A stretch of 37,179 nucleotides of DNA, from contig JASLLI010000006.1 of assembly GCA_030747125.1 (NCBI GenBank), forward strand, positions 1 to 37,179, in the 5' to 3' direction. Of the stretch, positions 17,651 through 27,375 are shown piece by piece. Within the stretch, counting starts at the first letter, position 1. Every line of letters starts with the position of its first letter. The position numbers and the translations under genes are program-made. The notes below the pieces were generated by a model that saw only the letters and a program-made list of their open reading frames with translations, did not search any database and was not told where the DNA came from. This DNA comes from Fidelibacterota bacterium. GTDB taxonomy: Bacteria > Fidelibacterota > Marinisomatia > SCGC-AAA003-L08 > D37C17.

Positions 17651-18598
17651 TTAGTTATTTAATGTCTTTAATACTTTAGTTACGGGACCTGCTCCGCTCA
17701 TGATATAAAAATGGATATTTTTTATACCCTTATTCAGTAGATCTTCACATTGTTTTATAGTCCAATTTATCCCAATATCTTTACAATGGTCAGGTGAGGC
17801 TTCAATTTCATCGGATAGCTCCGAAGGAATGTTTACATAGAAATTTTTAGGAATATTGGTGAGTTGTTTTGAATTACTAATAATTTTAAGTCCGGGAATT
17901 ATGGGAACTTCAATACCTGCTTCTCTACATTCCTTTTCAAAATTCAAAAACACCTCATTTTCAAAAAACATCTGGGTTACAATATAATCTGCGCCAGCGT
18001 CAACCTTTTGTTTTAAATGTTCAATATCCTTTTTGAGATTGGGTGCTTCAAAATGTTTTTCGGGATAACCTCCCACGCCTATACATAAGTCAACGGGATC
18101 TGGATTAATAATCTCATCCAAATACTTTCCAGCCCGAAGATCATCTAATTGGGATACCAAGTCAGATGCATATACATTCACTGATCTGCCGGAGCGTAAG
18201 GGCTTTTTATAATTTGTTTCATCACCACGCACTGCCAATATGTTATGAATTCCCAAATAATTCAGCTCAATTATTGCATCTTCCGTTTCCTCCCTAGTAA
18301 ATCCTCTACATAAGAGATGAGCAACAGTATCTATTTTGAATCGGTTTTGGATTATTCCGCAAATACTGATAGTCCCGGGTCTTTTCTTTCGGACTCTTCT
18401 CTTTACTTCACCATCGTTTCCTTCTTCATAATAGGCTTCTGCGGAATGACTGGTAACATCAATAAAGGGTGGACGAAATGGCTCTAAATCTTTTACGATA
18501 TCAATAATTTCCTGTGCAGATTTTCCTCGTTTGGGAGGTATGATTTCAAAGCTGAACAGTGGATTACTGGCTTGGTTAATATGCTCTATAACTTTCAA
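17651..18598 (-). CDS. metF: Methylenetetrahydrofolate reductase
   Basis: [57 protein letters not shown]. Confidence 0.92.
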
Positions 18599-21500
18599 TC
18601 TATTATGACTTCTTTTTTAATTTCTGATGGTTCATTTACATAGGGAGAAATGTACTTTTTTGTTTCATTAATGGAAAGATGTTTTCTTTCACTATAATCC
18701 TGTAATTGATCATCCTGGATTTTTCCTATACTGAAATATTTAGATTCCGGATGCGAAAAATAGTATCCTGACACAGAAGCAGGAGGGTCCATGGCAAAAT
18801 GTGAGGTGAGATTTATTCCTGTATTTTCCTCTGCATTCAATAGAGTAAAAATCTTTCCTTTTTCAGAGTGGTCTGGACAGGCGGCGTACCCCGGGGCAGG
18901 CCTAATACCTTTGTATTTTTCTGCAATTAACTCTGAACTGGACAAAGTCTCATCTGGTGCATAACCCCAATACCTGGTTCTTACCAGTTGATGCAGATGC
19001 TCTGCAAATGCTTCAGCTAATCTGTCTGCTAATGCCTTCACCATAATGGCATTATAATCATCATGCTGTGCTTGATAATGTTCAACGATTTCCTCCAGAC
19101 CTATTCCGCAGGTGACCGCAAAAACTCCCAGCCAATCAGTTTGGTCTGAACTCTTAGGGGCAATAAAGTCACCAAGAGATAGTTGATAATCCGCTTTTTT
19201 TATTTGCTGACGGAGGAAATTAAAAGTAACCCGTTTTTGACTATTTGGGGGCTCAACTAAAACATCATCATTTATGGAATTGGCTGGAAATATTTGGAAA
19301 ACAGCATTTGCTTTAAGTTGGTTCCCTGAGACTATTTCATCTAATAAATTCTTAGCGTCATTCAATAAAGTTTTAGCCTCTGTTCCATATTTTTTATCCT
19401 CCAAAATTGCAGGATACTTCCCTCTTAATTCCCAAGTAGTGAAAAAGGGAGTCCAATCAATAAAGGGGATTAGCTTATTCAATGGATAATCAGATAAAAT
19501 AATTTTTTCTGTTACCTTTGGAGCCGGTGGATTATAGCTTTCCCAATTAATCTTAAATTTTTTCTGTCGTGCTTCACGCAAGGATAAAAAGGGTATTGAT
19601 CGTTTAGATAATCGGGTTTTTCTGATATTTTCATATTCTGCAGACTTGTCTTTTTGATATTGGTTAGCCTCTTTAGAAAGGAGTTTCCTAACCACATCTA
19701 CAGACCTGGAAGCATCGGTGACATAAATTGTTTTATCCGGGTATTCAGGAGCAATTTTAACAGCAGTATGCAGTTTCGATGTAGTTGCACCACCAATGAT
19801 TAATGGCAAGGAAAAATGACAGTGGTTCAGTTCTGCTGCAACAATTACCATTTCATCAAGAGAGGGAGTTATTAAACCGCTTAGTCCTATGACATCCACT
19901 TTTTCCTTTTCTGCAGTTTCAAGAATTTTCTGCACCGGTACCATTACTCCCAAATCAATAATTTCATAATTATTGCATCCCAAAACTACACCAACGATAT
20001 TTTTCCCAATATCATGTACATCTCCCTTTACCGTAGCAAGAAGGATTTTACCATTACTTGCGGCTGAATCTTTTTTAGATTCCTCTAAAAATGGAGTTAA
20101 ATAGGCAACTGCTTTCTTCATAACTCTTGCAGATTTTACAACTTGAGGAAGAAACATTTTACCGGCACCAAATAAATCCCCCACTTTATTCATACCATCC
20201 ATAAGAGGACCTTCGATAACCTTCACCGGGTCTTCCCCTTCCACACGGGCTTCTTCTGTATCTTCTTCTATGTAAGTAGAAATTCCTTCCACCAATGAAT
20301 GACTCAACCGCTGTGATATTGGATATGTACGCCATTCCAGGGTTTCTTTAGGAGAAGCAACTTTCTCTTCAATATCACGGGCAGATTCTAACAAAATTTC
20401 ACCAGCATCCGGAGAAGTATTAAACAGGACTGCTTCAATATTGTCTCTCAACTTAACTGGAATGTCTTCATAAATGACAATCTGTCCTGCATTGACAATT
20501 CCCATATCCATTCCTGCTTTAATTGCATGATATAAGAATACGGTATGCATGGCTTCACGAATTGTATTATTTCCTCGAAACGAAAAGGACAGGTTACTCA
20601 CTCCCCCGCTTATGAGGGAATAAGGACAAATTTCTTTCAGTTTTGAACAGGTATCAATAAAGGCTTTGGCATATTCATTATGCTCTTCAATTCCTGTTGC
20701 AACTGCAAAAATATTAGGGTCGAAAATTATATCTTCAGGAGGAAAGTTTAATTCCTCTCTCAGCAAGTTGAATGACCTGCTGCAAATTTCAATTTTTCTT
20801 TTGTAAGTATCTGCCTGACCTGTTTCATCAAAAGCCATAATAATGACAGCTGCTCCATATTTTCTCACCAGTGCAGCTCTTTCTAAAAAGAGATTTTCTC
20901 CATCTTTCAGACTGATTGAATTAACAATTCCTTTTCCCTGAATATTTTTTAATCCTTCTTCTATAACCTCCCATCGAGAAGAATCAATTACCACAGGAAC
21001 TTTAGAAATTGCAGGATCAGAAGCGATTAATCTGAGGAATTTCTGCATACAAAAGGTTGAATCCAACAACCCTTCATCCATATTCACATCTATCATTTGC
21101 GCTCCGTCATCAACTTGCTGAAGGGCAACAGACAGAGCTTCTTCATAAGCTTCCTGCTTGATTAATCGGGCAAATTTTCTTGATCCTGAAACATTGGTTC
21201 TTTCACCAACATTTACGAATAATGAATCCCGTTGTATAAGTAGAGGTTCCAGTCCGCTGAGTTTGGTTTTAGTTTCAATCTTAGGGATTGGTCTTGGTGG
21301 GGTATCTTTAACAATATCATTAATTTTTTTGATATGATCAGGCGTTGTACCACAGCATCCGCCTACTATGTTTACTAATCCTGAATCTGCGAAATCTTTA
21401 ATGATAGCAGCCATTTGATTCGGAGATTGGTCGTATTCACCAAGTTCATTTGGCAATCCTGCATTTGGATGAACAGAAACAGGAATATCTGCAACTTTTG

Positions 21501-22272
21501 CCAGTTCAATTAAGAAGGGCCGCATTTCTGCAGCTCCCAATGCACAGTTAATACCAATGCTTGCCAATTCTACATGTCGCACTGAATACCAGAATGCTTC
21601 GATCATTTGTCCCGACAAAGTTCTGCCACTGGCATCAGTAATGGTAACTGATACCATTACCGGTAATTGTATCTCCTTCTCCACGAATACATTTTGAATT
21701 GCGAATAGAGCCGCCTTACAATTCAAAGTATCAAATACTGTTTCAACCATGAGTAGATCAGTTCCGCCGTCTATCAATCCCCTACATTGGTCACTATAGG
21801 TATTTACTAGAATGTCAAAATCAACATTTCTGAAAGAAGGATCATTTACATCGGGAGACATGGAACAAGTTCTATTGGTAGGACCTAATATCCCCGCAAT
21901 ATATGCTCTTCTATTACCTGTTTCATCAGCATAGTTGTCCACTGCCTTTTTTGCAATTTTTGCAGAAGCAAAGTTTAGATCATACACATACTTTTCCAAC
22001 TCATAATCTGCCTGGGATACTTCATTTGCATTAAAGGTATTCGTCTCAATAATATCTGCACCTGCATGGAGATATTGGGTGTGGATTTCAGAAATGATAT
22101 CAGGGCGGGTAATAGACAGAACATCATGATTCCCCTTAAGTTCTGAGGAATGGTTTTTGAAAATATCCTTGCGGTAATCTGAATCTTCTAAACTATAAGA
22201 TTGAATCAATGATCCCATTGCACCGTCAAGAGTTAAGATTTTTTTAGTAATTATATTTCTAAATTCTTCCAT
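18595..22272 (-). CDS. metH: Cobalamin-dependent methionine synthase, full length
   Basis: 1225 aa: [42 protein letters not shown]12 motif [28 protein letters not shown]; activation domain [18 protein letters not shown]. Confidence 0.98.
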
Positions 22273-22302
22273 AAAAAAATAAAACCGGCTCTAAACCGGT
22301 TT
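22273..22302 (-). terminator. Intrinsic terminator of the metH riboswitch expression platform
   Basis: Minus strand AAACCGG-UUUAGAG-CCGGUUU-UAUUUUUUU immediately followed by the metH ATG. Confidence 0.85.
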
Positions 22303-22304
22303 CT

Positions 22305-22361
22305 GCCCTGTTTAGCTACCTTCTTTTCTGTCGCGGCAATTTGGAATAAATCACGACGGGC
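22305..22361 (-). promoter_or_regulatory. SAM-II-like (alternatively SAM-V) S-adenosylmethionine riboswitch aptamer upstream of metH
   Basis: Minus strand GCCCGUCGUGAUUUAUUCCAAAUUGCCGCGACAGAAAAGAAGGUAGCUAAACAGGGC. P1 GUCGUG/CGCGAC; pseudoknot UUGC/GC(U)AA and UUCC/AGGG; conserved GAUUUA..UUGC and AGCUAAA..GGG of SAM-II; located before a methionine-cycle operon. Confidence 0.85.
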
Positions 22362-22390
22362 AAAATTAAATGAATTTTAAATATACAAAA
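22361..22390 (-). promoter_or_regulatory. Candidate metH operon promoter of Bacteroidota-like type
   Basis: Minus strand TTTTG-N17-TAATTTTG resembles the TTTG / TAnnTTTG consensus just upstream of the aptamer. Confidence 0.35.
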
Positions 22391-22403: not shown

Positions 22404-22439
22404 AAAAAAAGAAAGGAGCGGTGATTGCACCGCTCCTTT
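22404..22439 (-). terminator. Strong intrinsic terminator ending the candidate small RNA
   Basis: Minus strand AAAGGAGCGGUG-CAAU-CACCGCUCCUUU-CUUUUUUU: perfect 12-bp GC-rich stem and U7. Confidence 0.9.
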
Positions 22440-22491
22440 TCTTCCATGGGACAGCAAGATGGGATGCACAGCCAGGCTGGACCAATTAAGA

Positions 22492-22554
22492 AAATGATTG
22501 GCGTTTAATTGATTGATTTGAAGGAGGAGGACAAACATCAAACGCCAATCATTT
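22492..22554. repeat. 15-bp perfect inverted repeat, 33-nt spacer
   Basis: AAATGATTGGCGTTT (22492-22506) and AAACGCCAATCATTT (22540-22554). Confidence 0.95.
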
Positions 22555-22620
22555 CTACAGGACTATTTTTATTAGAACCGTTATGGGATTTTAACTGTCA
22601 ATAAAAACAGCTTCCTATAA

Positions 22621-22675
22621 TGTATATACGCAGTGAGTGCACCAAAAAGGACATTTTTTTTTCAACTTTTTTAAA
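22621..22675 (-). pseudogene. Degraded relic similar to part of the sigma-like gene at 26401-27375
   Basis: TGTATATACGCAGTGAGTGCACCAAAAAGGACA matches 26935-26966 at 29 of 33 aligned positions (one 1-nt gap); minus-strand translation FKKVEKKMSFLVHSLR resembles FKKKYKKNEKFLSFFMLSLR, then frameshifts and stops. Confidence 0.4.
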
Positions 22676-22763
22676 TTATTTTGTTTTATAGACGAGAATT
22701 ATTTAGTTTAAATCAATGATTTTCTGCCAAAATATTACATTTTTTTTCAACACTCCTAAATTT

Positions 22764-25748
22764 ATGCACATTTTTACACTAATTTTAACCGGATTTATCA
22801 CCTCTCAGGCATTTGCTTCAGATAACTATTTACAAAAAGGAAATGATTTTCAAAAGTCTGCCCAAAGAGATAGTGCCAATTACTTTTATAAATTGGCAAT
22901 CCCGGGATTAATTCACAAAAACGAATACGAAAAATTGACAAATACATACCGCTCCATTGGGAATAATTTTATCAGATTAGAGCTAAAGGATTCTGCCCTC
23001 CATTATATTTCATTATCAATAAATACAGCAAAATTACATTTGAAAGAACCAGATTTAGCATTGATGAAGGCATACAACAGCAAAGCATCAATGTATGGTT
23101 CGCTGAGAGATTATCATAAATCTGCTGAGTATTTTAAATTAGCATTACATCACCATCTCCTAAGTAAATCTGATAAAAAGCCGCTCACAGCCAAATTATA
23201 TAATAACATCGGTACCATATATAATCTCATTGGTGAACTTGACTCTGCCATCATTTACCTTGAACACGCACTTGCTTTAAAAACAGAAATTTATCAGAAA
23301 GAAGATAAAAATCTGTCCAGTACCTACAATAATCTGGGAATTTTATATGTTAACAGAGGGTACTACTCAGATGCTATTAAAACATTAAAACTAGCATTAA
23401 ATACGGAAGGTATTGAGGAAAATACAACCAACTTAATTAAAATATATCATAATCTGGGAATGGCTTCTCAGAAACAGGGTGACTTAGATCTTGCTGAGAG
23501 TTATTTATTAAAAGAATTAAATTTATTTAATGAGTTCGAAAATGTTAACTATACCGACCTTGCTTTAAATTATAATTCATTAGGAAATATCTATAATAGA
23601 ATGGGGAAGTTCAATACTGGCTTAGTACAGTATAATACCTCTCTGAGTTTATTAGAGGAACACGATGCTGAAAATTTTGTAGATATGGCCATGGTATTAA
23701 ATAATATTGGGAATACTCATATTAATCTTGAAGAATTTATTAATGCAGAAACTGCATTTTCAAATTCTCTATTGTGTTATGAAAAATTAAATTACAGGAA
23801 CCCCCTGAAAGGACTTTTATTTTCCAATTTTGGGAAAATGTACAGAATGCAAACTAATTATAATAAGGCAATACAATATTATCATCAATCCAATCAATAT
23901 TATTACCAGATATTCAATGAAAAACATCCATCCATTGCCGAAAATTATATTGAATTGGGCAAAACTTTTTTTGATCAGGGAGAAATAGATTCCTCTTTAT
24001 TTTATTTAGATAAAGCAGGAACTTTACTGCATCTTCCACTGGAAATTGAGAATATTAATGAAACTTCAGATGTAGTACATAAGGATATGGGATTAACCTT
24101 GTTGCAATACCAAACCAATACGCTCCTCAAAGAAGCTGAATTTCCAATCTCCGGTAACCAGGAAAAATATCTTTTAGAGCAGGTAATTTTAAAATGTGAA
24201 ATGTCCGTGGGGATAATCCATGAAATCAGAAAAAGTTTTTTATTTTCCCAATCCAAATATCTGCTTTCGGAGACTATTCAGGGAATCTATGCAAATGGAG
24301 TGAAGTCTGCATACCGTTTATACAATTTGACAGGACAAGACCAATATCTGGAAATAGCACTCCGATTCTCAGAATACTCAAGAGCATCAATTTTCCGGGA
24401 GACTATAGCTGCATATGAAAATACAATGTATGCAAATATTCCCGAGGATATTATTCATACCATAAATCGCATGAAATCTGATATTTCATACTATCAAAAT
24501 GAAATTAATCTTGAAGAAGGAAACCCAGCTCCTGAAATAGATGTGTTACACCTTGCCCATTTACAGAATTTACAATTCAGCTTGATTTCAAAATATGATA
24601 GTTATATGCAATTTATTAAACTTGAGTATCCGGATTTTTACAATTTACTCCATCCGGAAAGAGAATTAAAATTAGAAGCTATACTAAATAATATCGGTAA
24701 TAATGAGATTATAGTGGAATTTTTTCAATGGGAATCGACTATATATATTTTTTGCATGAGCAACTCTCAAATAGTTGTAAAAAAAATACCGTTAAAAACA
24801 GATTTTGATCAGATGGTTAACACCTTTATAACCTCCATTAAAAAAATTCAATCATCCCAATTTTATGATTCGGGAATTGAACTTTATAACATTCTCCTTT
24901 TGCCGATATCCCGGGAATTTAATGGGATACACAAAATCACCTTCATATTGGGAGGGACATTAAGTTCTCTGCCATTTGAAGCCCTTCCTCTTCCTCCATC
25001 GCAACCCTATCCAAATAACTTGGATATCCGGTTTCTGGTAGAACAATTTGAAGTCAGCTATTCTCTCACTGCAGAAAAGATAGAAAGATCGGCTTATTAT
25101 TCAGACAGAGAATTATCAAACATTGCTGTTTTTGCACCTGTCAATAATTTTACCCCAAACTTTGAAAATAATGCTCTGTTTGAAGAGTTAGTATACTCGC
25201 AACAAGAAGCAGAATCCATTGCTTCAAAGGGGGCTGATAATAAAATAGAAACAGATATGTATTTACATTCTGAAGCATCCGAAGAGAATTTTAAATCTGT
25301 ATTAAAAAAAGAGAATGATATTCTTCATATTGCAACCCATGGTTTTTTGAATGAAGATTCCCCAGATTTATCGGCACTATATTTTTCTAATCCGGAGAAT
25401 CCGGGAGAGGATGGGATATTGTTTTCTGCTGAATTATACAATTTGAATATCCAAACTGATTTAACTGTATTAAGCGGATGTGAAACAGGGCTTGGGAAAA
25501 TGGTTAACGGAGAAGGAGTTTTGTCTTTATCTCGTGGATTTTCCTATGCAGGATCAAAGAATATTGTTTACACTTTATGGAAGGTTGGTGATCAAACTTC
25601 CTTCACTCTTATGGCTAACTTTTATGAACAGATCTTTAAGGAAAGAAATTATTCTAAAGCTCTTAGAAATGCAAAATTACAGATGATATCAAATGAAGAA
25701 ACTTCCCTTCCCCGGTTTTGGAGCGGATATGTTTTACTTGAAAATTAA
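22764..25748 (+). CDS. Exported TPR-repeat protein with C-terminal CHAT (caspase-like) domain
   Basis: Signal peptide MHIFTLILTGFITSQAFA; multiple TPRs (AKLYNNIGTIYNLIGELDSAIIYLEHALALK, STYNNLGILYVNRGYYSDAIKTLKLAL); CHAT motifs DILHIATHGFLNEDSPDLSALYFS and LTVLSGCETGLGKMVNGEGVLSLSRGFSYAGSKNIVYTLWKV (His/Cys dyad). Start refined to ATG 22764. Confidence 0.88.
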   Translation: MHIFTLILTGFITSQAFASDNYLQKGNDFQKSAQRDSANYFYKLAIPGLIHKNEYEKLTNTYRSIGNNFIRLELKDSALHYISLSINTAKLHLKEPDLALMKAYNSKASMYGSLRDYHKSAEYFKLALHHHLLSKSDKKPLTAKLYNNIGTIYNLIGELDSAIIYLEHALALKTEIYQKEDKNLSSTYNNLGILYVNRGYYSDAIKTLKLALNTEGIEENTTNLIKIYHNLGMASQKQGDLDLAESYLLKELNLFNEFENVNYTDLALNYNSLGNIYNRMGKFNTGLVQYNTSLSLLEEHDAENFVDMAMVLNNIGNTHINLEEFINAETAFSNSLLCYEKLNYRNPLKGLLFSNFGKMYRMQTNYNKAIQYYHQSNQYYYQIFNEKHPSIAENYIELGKTFFDQGEIDSSLFYLDKAGTLLHLPLEIENINETSDVVHKDMGLTLLQYQTNTLLKEAEFPISGNQEKYLLEQVILKCEMSVGIIHEIRKSFLFSQSKYLLSETIQGIYANGVKSAYRLYNLTGQDQYLEIALRFSEYSRASIFRETIAAYENTMYANIPEDIIHTINRMKSDISYYQNEINLEEGNPAPEIDVLHLAHLQNLQFSLISKYDSYMQFIKLEYPDFYNLLHPERELKLEAILNNIGNNEIIVEFFQWESTIYIFCMSNSQIVVKKIPLKTDFDQMVNTFITSIKKIQSSQFYDSGIELYNILLLPISREFNGIHKITFILGGTLSSLPFEALPLPPSQPYPNNLDIRFLVEQFEVSYSLTAEKIERSAYYSDRELSNIAVFAPVNNFTPNFENNALFEELVYSQQEAESIASKGADNKIETDMYLHSEASEENFKSVLKKENDILHIATHGFLNEDSPDLSALYFSNPENPGEDGILFSAELYNLNIQTDLTVLSGCETGLGKMVNGEGVLSLSRGFSYAGSKNIVYTLWKVGDQTSFTLMANFYEQIFKERNYSKALRNAKLQMISNEETSLPRFWSGYVLLEN

Positions 25749-26404
25749 CGCAGGAAAATTTTTCCGGTAAAAAGCAAATCATCTTTATCAGATAATTGCC
25801 AATAGTAAAGTCCCTTGTCAAAAGTGTTTTCAATCTCTAACTGTTCTTCCAGAGCAGTGAGTGAAATCATTTCCTCATTAGTATTTGAGAAAAGTTGAAA
25901 AGTGAGAGGCTCCCTTTTACTCCACTTCCAGGAGAAATGAAGATAAGGTGGGTTTAATACTTCTTCACCAGTAACTGGTGAAATGATTTCTAAATTTGAA
26001 GATCTAGCCAAATCATTTACCAATAGTTCTAATATGCGGTTAGGGGTGAAATTTTTCTTCACAGACTCCGGGACTGAGGATATCGTTGTAAAATACAGTA
26101 ATCCAGGAATTATTACTAAAGTAGCAGCAACAGCCAATGCTTGTTTCCAATAGACATTACTCATATCTCTTTTATAATTCACAGGTGTGAAAGGGATGGT
26201 TTTTGTCTGATCTTCTTCCAAAATTGCATACATTTCAATAATAACCTGTTTGCATTTATCACAGTCTTCAACATGCTCCAACTCTGGTTCCGGGACTTTT
26301 TCTAATGTATCCTTACGAAGGTGGTCAATATAATCTGTCAATTGTATATCAGTTAAATGGTTTTGAATTCGATCTTTTATCTTATGTATTATTGTGATAA
26401 TCAT
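25745..26404 (-). CDS. Putative membrane anti-sigma-like protein with N-terminal zinc-finger motif
   Basis: LEHVEDCDKCKQVIIEMY (HxxxCxxC), single TM WKQALAVAATLVIIPGLLYFTTI, C-terminal extracytoplasmic domain; 4-bp overlap with the upstream sigma-like ORF. Confidence 0.55.
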   Translation of the reverse strand: MIITIIHKIKDRIQNHLTDIQLTDYIDHLRKDTLEKVPEPELEHVEDCDKCKQVIIEMYAILEEDQTKTIPFTPVNYKRDMSNVYWKQALAVAATLVIIPGLLYFTTISSVPESVKKNFTPNRILELLVNDLARSSNLEIISPVTGEEVLNPPYLHFSWKWSKREPLTFQLFSNTNEEMISLTALEEQLEIENTFDKGLYYWQLSDKDDLLFTGKIFLR

Positions 26405-27375
26405 GGCTTTTTCATTTTAGTTTGGGTTTGGTTGATGTTGGGGACATATTGATCATAGTATGCTACTAAAAATTTTGAAAATACCAATTTATTATAAATT
26501 GGATGATCATGAAATACATTTAATTTTTCAATAATTTGAAGCTCTTTCCTGTTTATCCATTTGCGGAATGAATCAATATCGTTTATCGTAAATCCATTTC
26601 TTGAAAATATTTTTTTCACTTTTTTATAAACTTGTTGGTCACTTATTAGTCTATAGTCTCCTAATATTAATTTCATTTCCCGAGCATTTACATTTGAAAA
26701 AACTCGTTCAACAAAACTGCGGTCAATCTTTAATCTATGTTTCAGCATCAGACTGATTTCTATTTTACCTGATGATTTATGATACAGTTTTAAGATAGTG
26801 GCGTATCTGTTAAACTCCTCATCCAATAATATACCGGATTCAAAATCATTTAAAGTAAACGCATCTGTTTCCTGAAGTTCTAATTCCTTATGGTTTAGTA
26901 AGTTCATATTACGACTTCTAAGTGTCTCTATATATGTATATCGCAGTGAGAGCATAAAAAAGGACAAAAATTTTTCATTTTTTTTATATTTTTTTTTAAA
27001 CTGTTTACATATCCTATGTATTTTTGAATGTAAGAGTTTTAATATAACTTCTTGTTTTACATCCTCTTGATTCCCATATCGCCATTGAGATTTATAGATA
27101 TATCGCGTGATAAACCCTTCATGCATTACTACCACCAAATAGGGGTCATTTTGGATAATTTTTCTAAAAGACAATGTTTGTTCCAATAATTCTTTTAATT
27201 CATTATGATTAGAAGATTGGTAAATTTTCTTATAATTGTCATTTTTATTGATTAACCCAAGAAAGTAGGAAATTAATATTTTATCGAGGCAGTTATATTT
27301 TTCCCTGGGATATTTATCCTCCGGGTAAAGTACCGTTTTTAGGTAGGTTTGTACAAATTTTACATTTTCAGGCAT
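26401..27375 (-). CDS. Divergent sigma-70-family-like factor (324 aa)
   Basis: Region-2-like RYGNQEDVKQEVILKLLHSKIHRICKQFKKKYKKNEKFLSFFMLSLRYTYIETLRSRN; translationally coupled to the zinc-finger membrane protein. No canonical region 4 recognised. Confidence 0.5.
   Translation of the reverse strand: MPENVKFVQTYLKTVLYPEDKYPREKYNCLDKILISYFLGLINKNDNYKKIYQSSNHNELKELLEQTLSFRKIIQNDPYLVVVMHEGFITRYIYKSQWRYGNQEDVKQEVILKLLHSKIHRICKQFKKKYKKNEKFLSFFMLSLRYTYIETLRSRNMNLLNHKELELQETDAFTLNDFESGILLDEEFNRYATILKLYHKSSGKIEISLMLKHRLKIDRSFVERVFSNVNAREMKLILGDYRLISDQQVYKKVKKIFSRNGFTINDIDSFRKWINRKELQIIEKLNVFHDHPIYNKLVFSKFLVAYYDQYVPNINQTQTKMKKP

Follow-up and report, generated by a model that had tools for sequence, protein, structure and literature searches.

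A candidate lineage-restricted small RNA gene upstream of metH in a Fidelibacterota genome

What is encoded in the intergenic stretch of ~490 bases that separates metH (minus strand, 18595-22272) from a TPR-CHAT gene (plus strand, start ~22764) in a genome of the phylum Fidelibacterota? The window, i.e., the whole 37,179-nt stretch of DNA analyzed, is contig C74 of genome G000 (source assembly of 1.7 Mb), and the closest named relative found is its congener Ca. Neomarinimicrobiota NIOZ-UU87 (G005), of the same phylum. The minus strand of the intergenic stretch carries a 15-bp stem, a 33-nt loop, a 52-nt linker and a terminator (Table 1). An initial annotation of this locus had proposed a ~160-nt trans-acting RNA that represses translation through an anti-Shine-Dalgarno loop and is linked to methionine metabolism. 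Judged from sequence comparison, the stretch is probably an independent small RNA gene on the minus strand.

Table 1. Features of the minus-strand unit and of the adjoining riboswitch, in positions of the window.
Feature	Position	Strand	Evidence or remark
AT-rich upstream block, UP-element-like	22656-22712	-	37/56 aligned columns identical to G005
Promoter-like bipartite element TGTCCT-N17-CGTATA	22625-22653	-	Exact match common to three G005 sites; sole exact match in G000
Predicted small RNA	22404-22618	-	Ends inferred from the conserved promoter-like element and the intrinsic terminator
TTGACA, earlier proposed -35, unsupported	22596-22601	-	No -10; gap in homolog
CTAATAAA motif, in the conserved 24 nt that precede the stem	22568-22575	-	Segment 17/24 identical to G005
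5' arm of perfect 15-bp stem	22540-22554	-	Inverted-repeat search, fold; 12/16 identical to G005
Loop region with short inner UUUG/CAAA pairing	22507-22539	-	Differs in homolog
UCCUCCUCCUU stretch, anti-Shine-Dalgarno-like	22521-22531	-	Complement AAGGAGGAGGA at the same coordinates on the plus strand
3' arm of 15-bp stem	22492-22506	-	3' arm segment 16/19 identical to G005
Weakly structured linker; contains AGCCUGGCUGU and two UCCC	22440-22491	-	Fold z = 0.16
Intrinsic terminator, 12-bp stem and U7	22404-22439	-	Terminator call; fold z = -5.8
SAM-II (SAM_alpha) riboswitch of metH, neighbor outside the RNA	22291-22367	-	RF00521, 30.8 bits, E 3.9e-5

Four perfect inverted repeats of at least 12 bp (loop 3-60) occur in the 37-kb window, and two of these are the stem and the terminator of the unit. 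The inverted-repeat search recovered the perfect 15-bp hairpin of the initial annotation, and the 12-bp terminator with U7 was likewise borne out. The 69-nt hairpin has an MFE of -24.6 kcal/mol (z = -7.5, 0/200 shuffles); it and the terminator alike (z = -5.8) lie well outside chance expectation. The stretch had also been described as non-coding, and this held: the ORFs across the unit are of 54 aa or less, none is credible, and the longest passes through the terminator. As a small RNA gene should, the unit has an intrinsic terminator and lacks a protein-coding frame. A known RNA family was sought in Rfam (4227 families), as the initial annotation had suggested, and none matched at the gathering score in the window; relaxed scans of the unit and of its G005 homolog returned only scores far under the family cut-offs. 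6S RNA was considered and rejected, there being neither an Rfam signal nor the long bubble-bearing helix.

The unit was then compared with the genomes of its relatives. With a model of the hairpin alone, a single additional credible match emerged in the congeners, at G005:C67:2618-2689 on the minus strand (E 8.7e-4 in that genome), and blastn gave a 218-nt match to G005 (62%; E 8e-12, the database being small and local). Conservation extended outside the model: a 108-nt upstream segment scored 57.5, compared with 32.4 +/- 5.0 in shuffles (0/3000), the shuffle tests in this work having been picked after the alignments had been seen. Both genomes have the AT-rich upstream block, TGTCCT-N17-CGTATA, the CTAATAAA motif, the stem and a closing intrinsic terminator, which in each lies ~50-70 nt past the stem. 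The promoter-element segment is identical to that of G005 at 18/31 positions, including all of both hexamers, and the linker resembles a second G005 unit (copy 2, described below; p ~0.002). The stems of both members stay paired (MFE -27.0 kcal/mol in G005), the substitutions between these two sequences including one compensatory AU/UA pair and one G.U change. A conserved short ORF was rejected as a reading of the unit, as the frames differ between the two members; the reading frame is not kept across the loop, the lengths of which differ by 2 nt. Because a related species has the same layout of promoter, hairpin and terminator elsewhere in its genome, it is very probable that the unit is a real small RNA gene.

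The loop is where the two members part: 16/33 aligned bases are identical, and CCUCCUCCUU is absent from the homolog. The loop of the G005 homolog has a feature of its own, in that its UUAGGACU could pair with the complementary AGUCCUAA of the 5' segment of the same RNA (L090:1500-1610, minus strand), a possible pseudoknot that the G000 copy lacks.

A perfect inverted repeat that occurs sporadically, in two different neighborhoods, might also be a DNA element, such as the end of a mobile element, a recombination site or a protein-binding palindrome, rather than an RNA. This is very improbable: there is a single copy per genome, no transposase gene was seen beside either copy, the two ends have a conserved promoter and terminator, and the G.U pair in the stem of the homolog keeps the pairing perfect in RNA but not in DNA. 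A search for a phage or mobile origin of the unit found nothing, and in viral contigs neither the long stem pattern nor the promoter was matched, the one hit being an unrelated match to a short pattern.

No further member was found, and the two sequences therefore bear the entire comparative case. The search for homologs, which the initial annotation had advised, thus succeeded in one congener, with a stem paired despite its substitutions, and gave no other member among the 245 genomes of the phylum; in each of the two genomes the RNA is present as a single copy. When 60 relatives were searched with the DNA of the unit, the only matches besides itself were AT-rich and at chance level, and a second model run over the phylum added no member. 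The other listed candidates of the hairpin model in the family and class (G005 excepted) were rejected, as they fold poorly or lack the flanking motif, as were weak matches of the second model in G002 and G004, which fall within a gene that encodes a conserved protein of 106 aa. Across 84,980 species genomes the stem pattern has 37 matches, and NIOZ-UU87 alone among them has the 5' motif.

The promoter had been placed at TTGACA, taken as a -35 hexamer. No acceptable -10 accompanies it, and 20/22 of the surrounding columns are gapped in the homolog. The conserved promoter-like element sits further upstream, and so a transcript of ~210 nt is predicted rather than one of ~160 nt, with a 5' end that is approximate, being placed from the -10-like element; the proposal of a minus-strand unit ending at the terminator stands. 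The unit thus appears to have its own promoter-like element and upstream block, conserved with the RNA in G005. G000 has a single copy of the exact sequence TGTCCTWTTT-N13-CGTATA (at the RNA) and G005 has three; the four remaining congeners have none. One of the G005 sites heads the homologous RNA and two precede protein genes, the products of which have signal-peptide-like starts and, by eye, the look of outer-membrane proteins, with no Pfam match; one of these two reading frames has an early stop. A fourth, imperfect site in G005 (L168:8210-8450, G005:C67, minus strand) heads a leader that contains AGCCTGGCTGT, ends in a terminator and immediately precedes a PEP-mutase/phosphonopyruvate-decarboxylase operon.

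The published ECF41 promoter is TGTCACA-n16-CGTC (PMC3426412), and its TGTC-N19-CGT distance is equal in the G000 element. The likeness is one of sequence only, and the G000 element has TGTCCT and CGTATA, not TGTCACA and CGTC. Because the TGTC-to-CGT distance of 19 equals that of ECF41, it may reasonably be inferred that an ECF-like sigma factor reads TGTCCT-N17-CGTATA. Alternatively, sigma-70 might recognize the promoter, with an activator binding at -35, which is consistent with the TATAAT-like sequences that come after CGTA. In the window, the product of the gene at 26401-27375 is weakly sigma70-ECF-like (TIGR02937, E 0.03), and tblastn with it gave no match in the G005 stretches examined. 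The TPR-CHAT gene faces two minus-strand genes (window 22764-27375), one weakly ECF-sigma-like and the other encoding, by eye, an anti-sigma-like membrane protein.

The RNA read from the conserved promoter could also be a cis-acting leader, its terminator serving as an attenuator of the downstream gene on the same strand. The gene that follows each of the three units does lie on the same strand, ~120-230 nt past the terminator: metH in G000, a deaminase-domain gene at copy 1 in G005 and a PEP-mutase (phosphonate) operon at copy 2, where promoter, AGCCTGGCTGT and terminator are joined directly before the PEP-mutase gene. However, three of three on the same strand is a 1-in-8 chance, and the three downstream genes are unrelated. 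Moreover, metH is served by a SAM-II switch of its own and by what looks like a separate promoter in between, similar sequence being present in congeners that lack the RNA. Nor did a credible antiterminator emerge: judged by eye, the loop can form only ~6 bp with the 12-bp terminator arm. A leader is therefore an unlikely explanation. The initial annotation had named another alternative, a plus-strand 5' leader of the CHAT gene, which is disfavored: none of the other 22 family members has this gene, whereas the RNA is present in G005, and the conserved promoter reads in the opposite direction.

The suggested link to methionine metabolism was also examined. The riboswitch reported at metH is present and belongs to the SAM-II (SAM_alpha) class, RF00521 scoring 30.8 bits here against a gathering score of 36 and lying above the cut-off upstream of metH in the relatives L031, L040 and L043. 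SAM-II precedes metH in several Fidelibacterota (the window, L031, L040, L043, L029 and L030), and the terminator hairpin after each nearly reaches the start codon; upstream of these switches there is a TTTG-N20-22-TAnnTT-like (Bacteroidota-type) promoter. The congeners G002 and G004 have both the riboswitch and metH, with no RNA upstream, and no MetH match was found in G005, which has the RNA (assembly 87% complete). As G002 and G004 have metH without the RNA, G005 has the RNA without a MetH match, and CHAT is absent from the rest of the family, the RNA tracks neither metH nor CHAT, and the methionine link is not supported by these comparisons.

A composite origin was considered as well, in which an old insulator terminator shields SAM-II and metH from upstream reading, the promoter and hairpin arrived with the CHAT region, and there is no functional small RNA. 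Upstream of metH, G001 has at the corresponding place a linker and terminator that resemble those of the unit, without the hairpin; this linker-terminator-like 3' segment scored 48.5, compared with 25.8 +/- 4.6 in shuffles (0/1000). The absence of the CHAT gene from all other genomes of the family also fits a composite. Against this, G005 keeps the order of promoter, stem, linker and terminator at a locus with neither metH nor CHAT, and since it has that order elsewhere, the whole arrangement is not peculiar to the metH/CHAT locus. A composite without a functional RNA is thus quite improbable, and an independent small RNA gene is the preferred reading; the 3' part of the unit may nonetheless have been present at the metH locus before the promoter and hairpin. 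The G001 segment (L030:1300-1400) reads AGCCTGGCCATCCTATG...GTGGTACCGTCGCCAC-T6, resembling the linker and terminator of the RNA, and its GTGGTACCG recalls a T-box; no T-box was found there at the Rfam cut-off.

If the unit is a small RNA gene, how might its product act? The 11-nt loop stretch UCCUCCUCCUU had been described as an anti-Shine-Dalgarno loop, and it is indeed the reverse complement of AAGGAGGAGGA, and complementary to a strong Shine-Dalgarno sequence. That the loop is the functional core found no such backing. In addition to the divergence of the loop in the homolog, AAGGAGGAGGA occurs in the genome as often as its reversed control (66 vs 66, at one mismatch or fewer), and among the AAGGAGGAGGA-type sites checked only one is a clear ribosome-binding site. 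Tested for a conserved loop and an excess of matching ribosome-binding sites, the anti-Shine-Dalgarno repressor showed neither. The one clear site, in G000:C31, is a near-perfect match, AAGGAGGAGAA, which stands before the start codon (ATG) of a gene for a putative secreted protein; it comes from loci chosen for the pattern and is hence a biased sample, to be taken as a lead. Shine-Dalgarno use in G000 looks weak in a crude survey of 58 genes, and a 16S rRNA gene, sought for its anti-Shine-Dalgarno tail, was not found in the G000 assembly. For a small RNA, repression in trans via the loop or the linker would be the likeliest action, on the evidence of one genome; as a mechanism, trans-repression is plausible but unproven.

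The unit is therefore regarded as a genuine lineage-restricted small RNA candidate, of a known kind and of a new and narrow family. In the scheme that is proposed, the ~210-nt RNA would depend for its transcription on a dedicated activator or on an ECF-like alternative sigma factor, and would belong to a very small regulon; in G005 this regulon would further comprise genes for putative secreted or outer-membrane proteins. The stem, being rigid, would protect the RNA and present a fast-evolving C/U-rich loop and a single-stranded linker, and these would base-pair with mRNAs, most simply at the G-rich ribosome-binding sites of the host species. A bolder version, which is speculative and on balance doubtful, is an envelope-stress-like regulon in Fidelibacterota: a single alternative sigma factor, reading TGTCCT-N17-CGTATA, would control genes for exported proteins together with non-coding RNAs whose conserved stem carries fast-evolving targeting loops that repress the translation of exported proteins.

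The unit would give an uncultured marine phylum a small RNA gene that is backed by comparison between genomes, and its distinct promoter element names a small regulon and makes a search for the sigma factor possible. It also offers a lesson, namely that an anti-Shine-Dalgarno loop, however striking in a single genome, can be the part of an RNA that is conserved least. A search of the literature found nothing that combined Marinimicrobia, small RNA and riboswitch.

Two groups of known small RNAs invite comparison. The UCCC-loop RNAs of Gram-positives (RNAIII, RsaE, SprD, FsrA and LhrC) have loops that pair with the Shine-Dalgarno sequence (PMC4132741), and the unit likewise has a C/U-rich unpaired stretch able to do so. 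The analogy to UCCC-type loops drawn in the initial annotation nevertheless fails in its particulars: the G000 loop is UCCUCCUCCUU, without UCCC, which occurs in the linker only; the loop differs in the homolog; and the host belongs to the FCB group. RybB and MicA, the sigma-E-dependent small RNAs of enterobacteria (PMC1804206), are closer in logic. The unit, too, has a promoter of apparent alternative-sigma type, and the other G005 sites of that promoter stand before genes for putative exported or outer-membrane proteins; by contrast, no relation in sequence was seen and the promoter sequence is another, so that the likeness is one of logic only. On the proposed scheme, the logic of sigma-E-controlled small RNAs would have been arrived at independently. 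If the envelope-stress-like regulon is real, it would parallel sigma-E with RybB and MicA in a phylum for which the literature search returned no such work.
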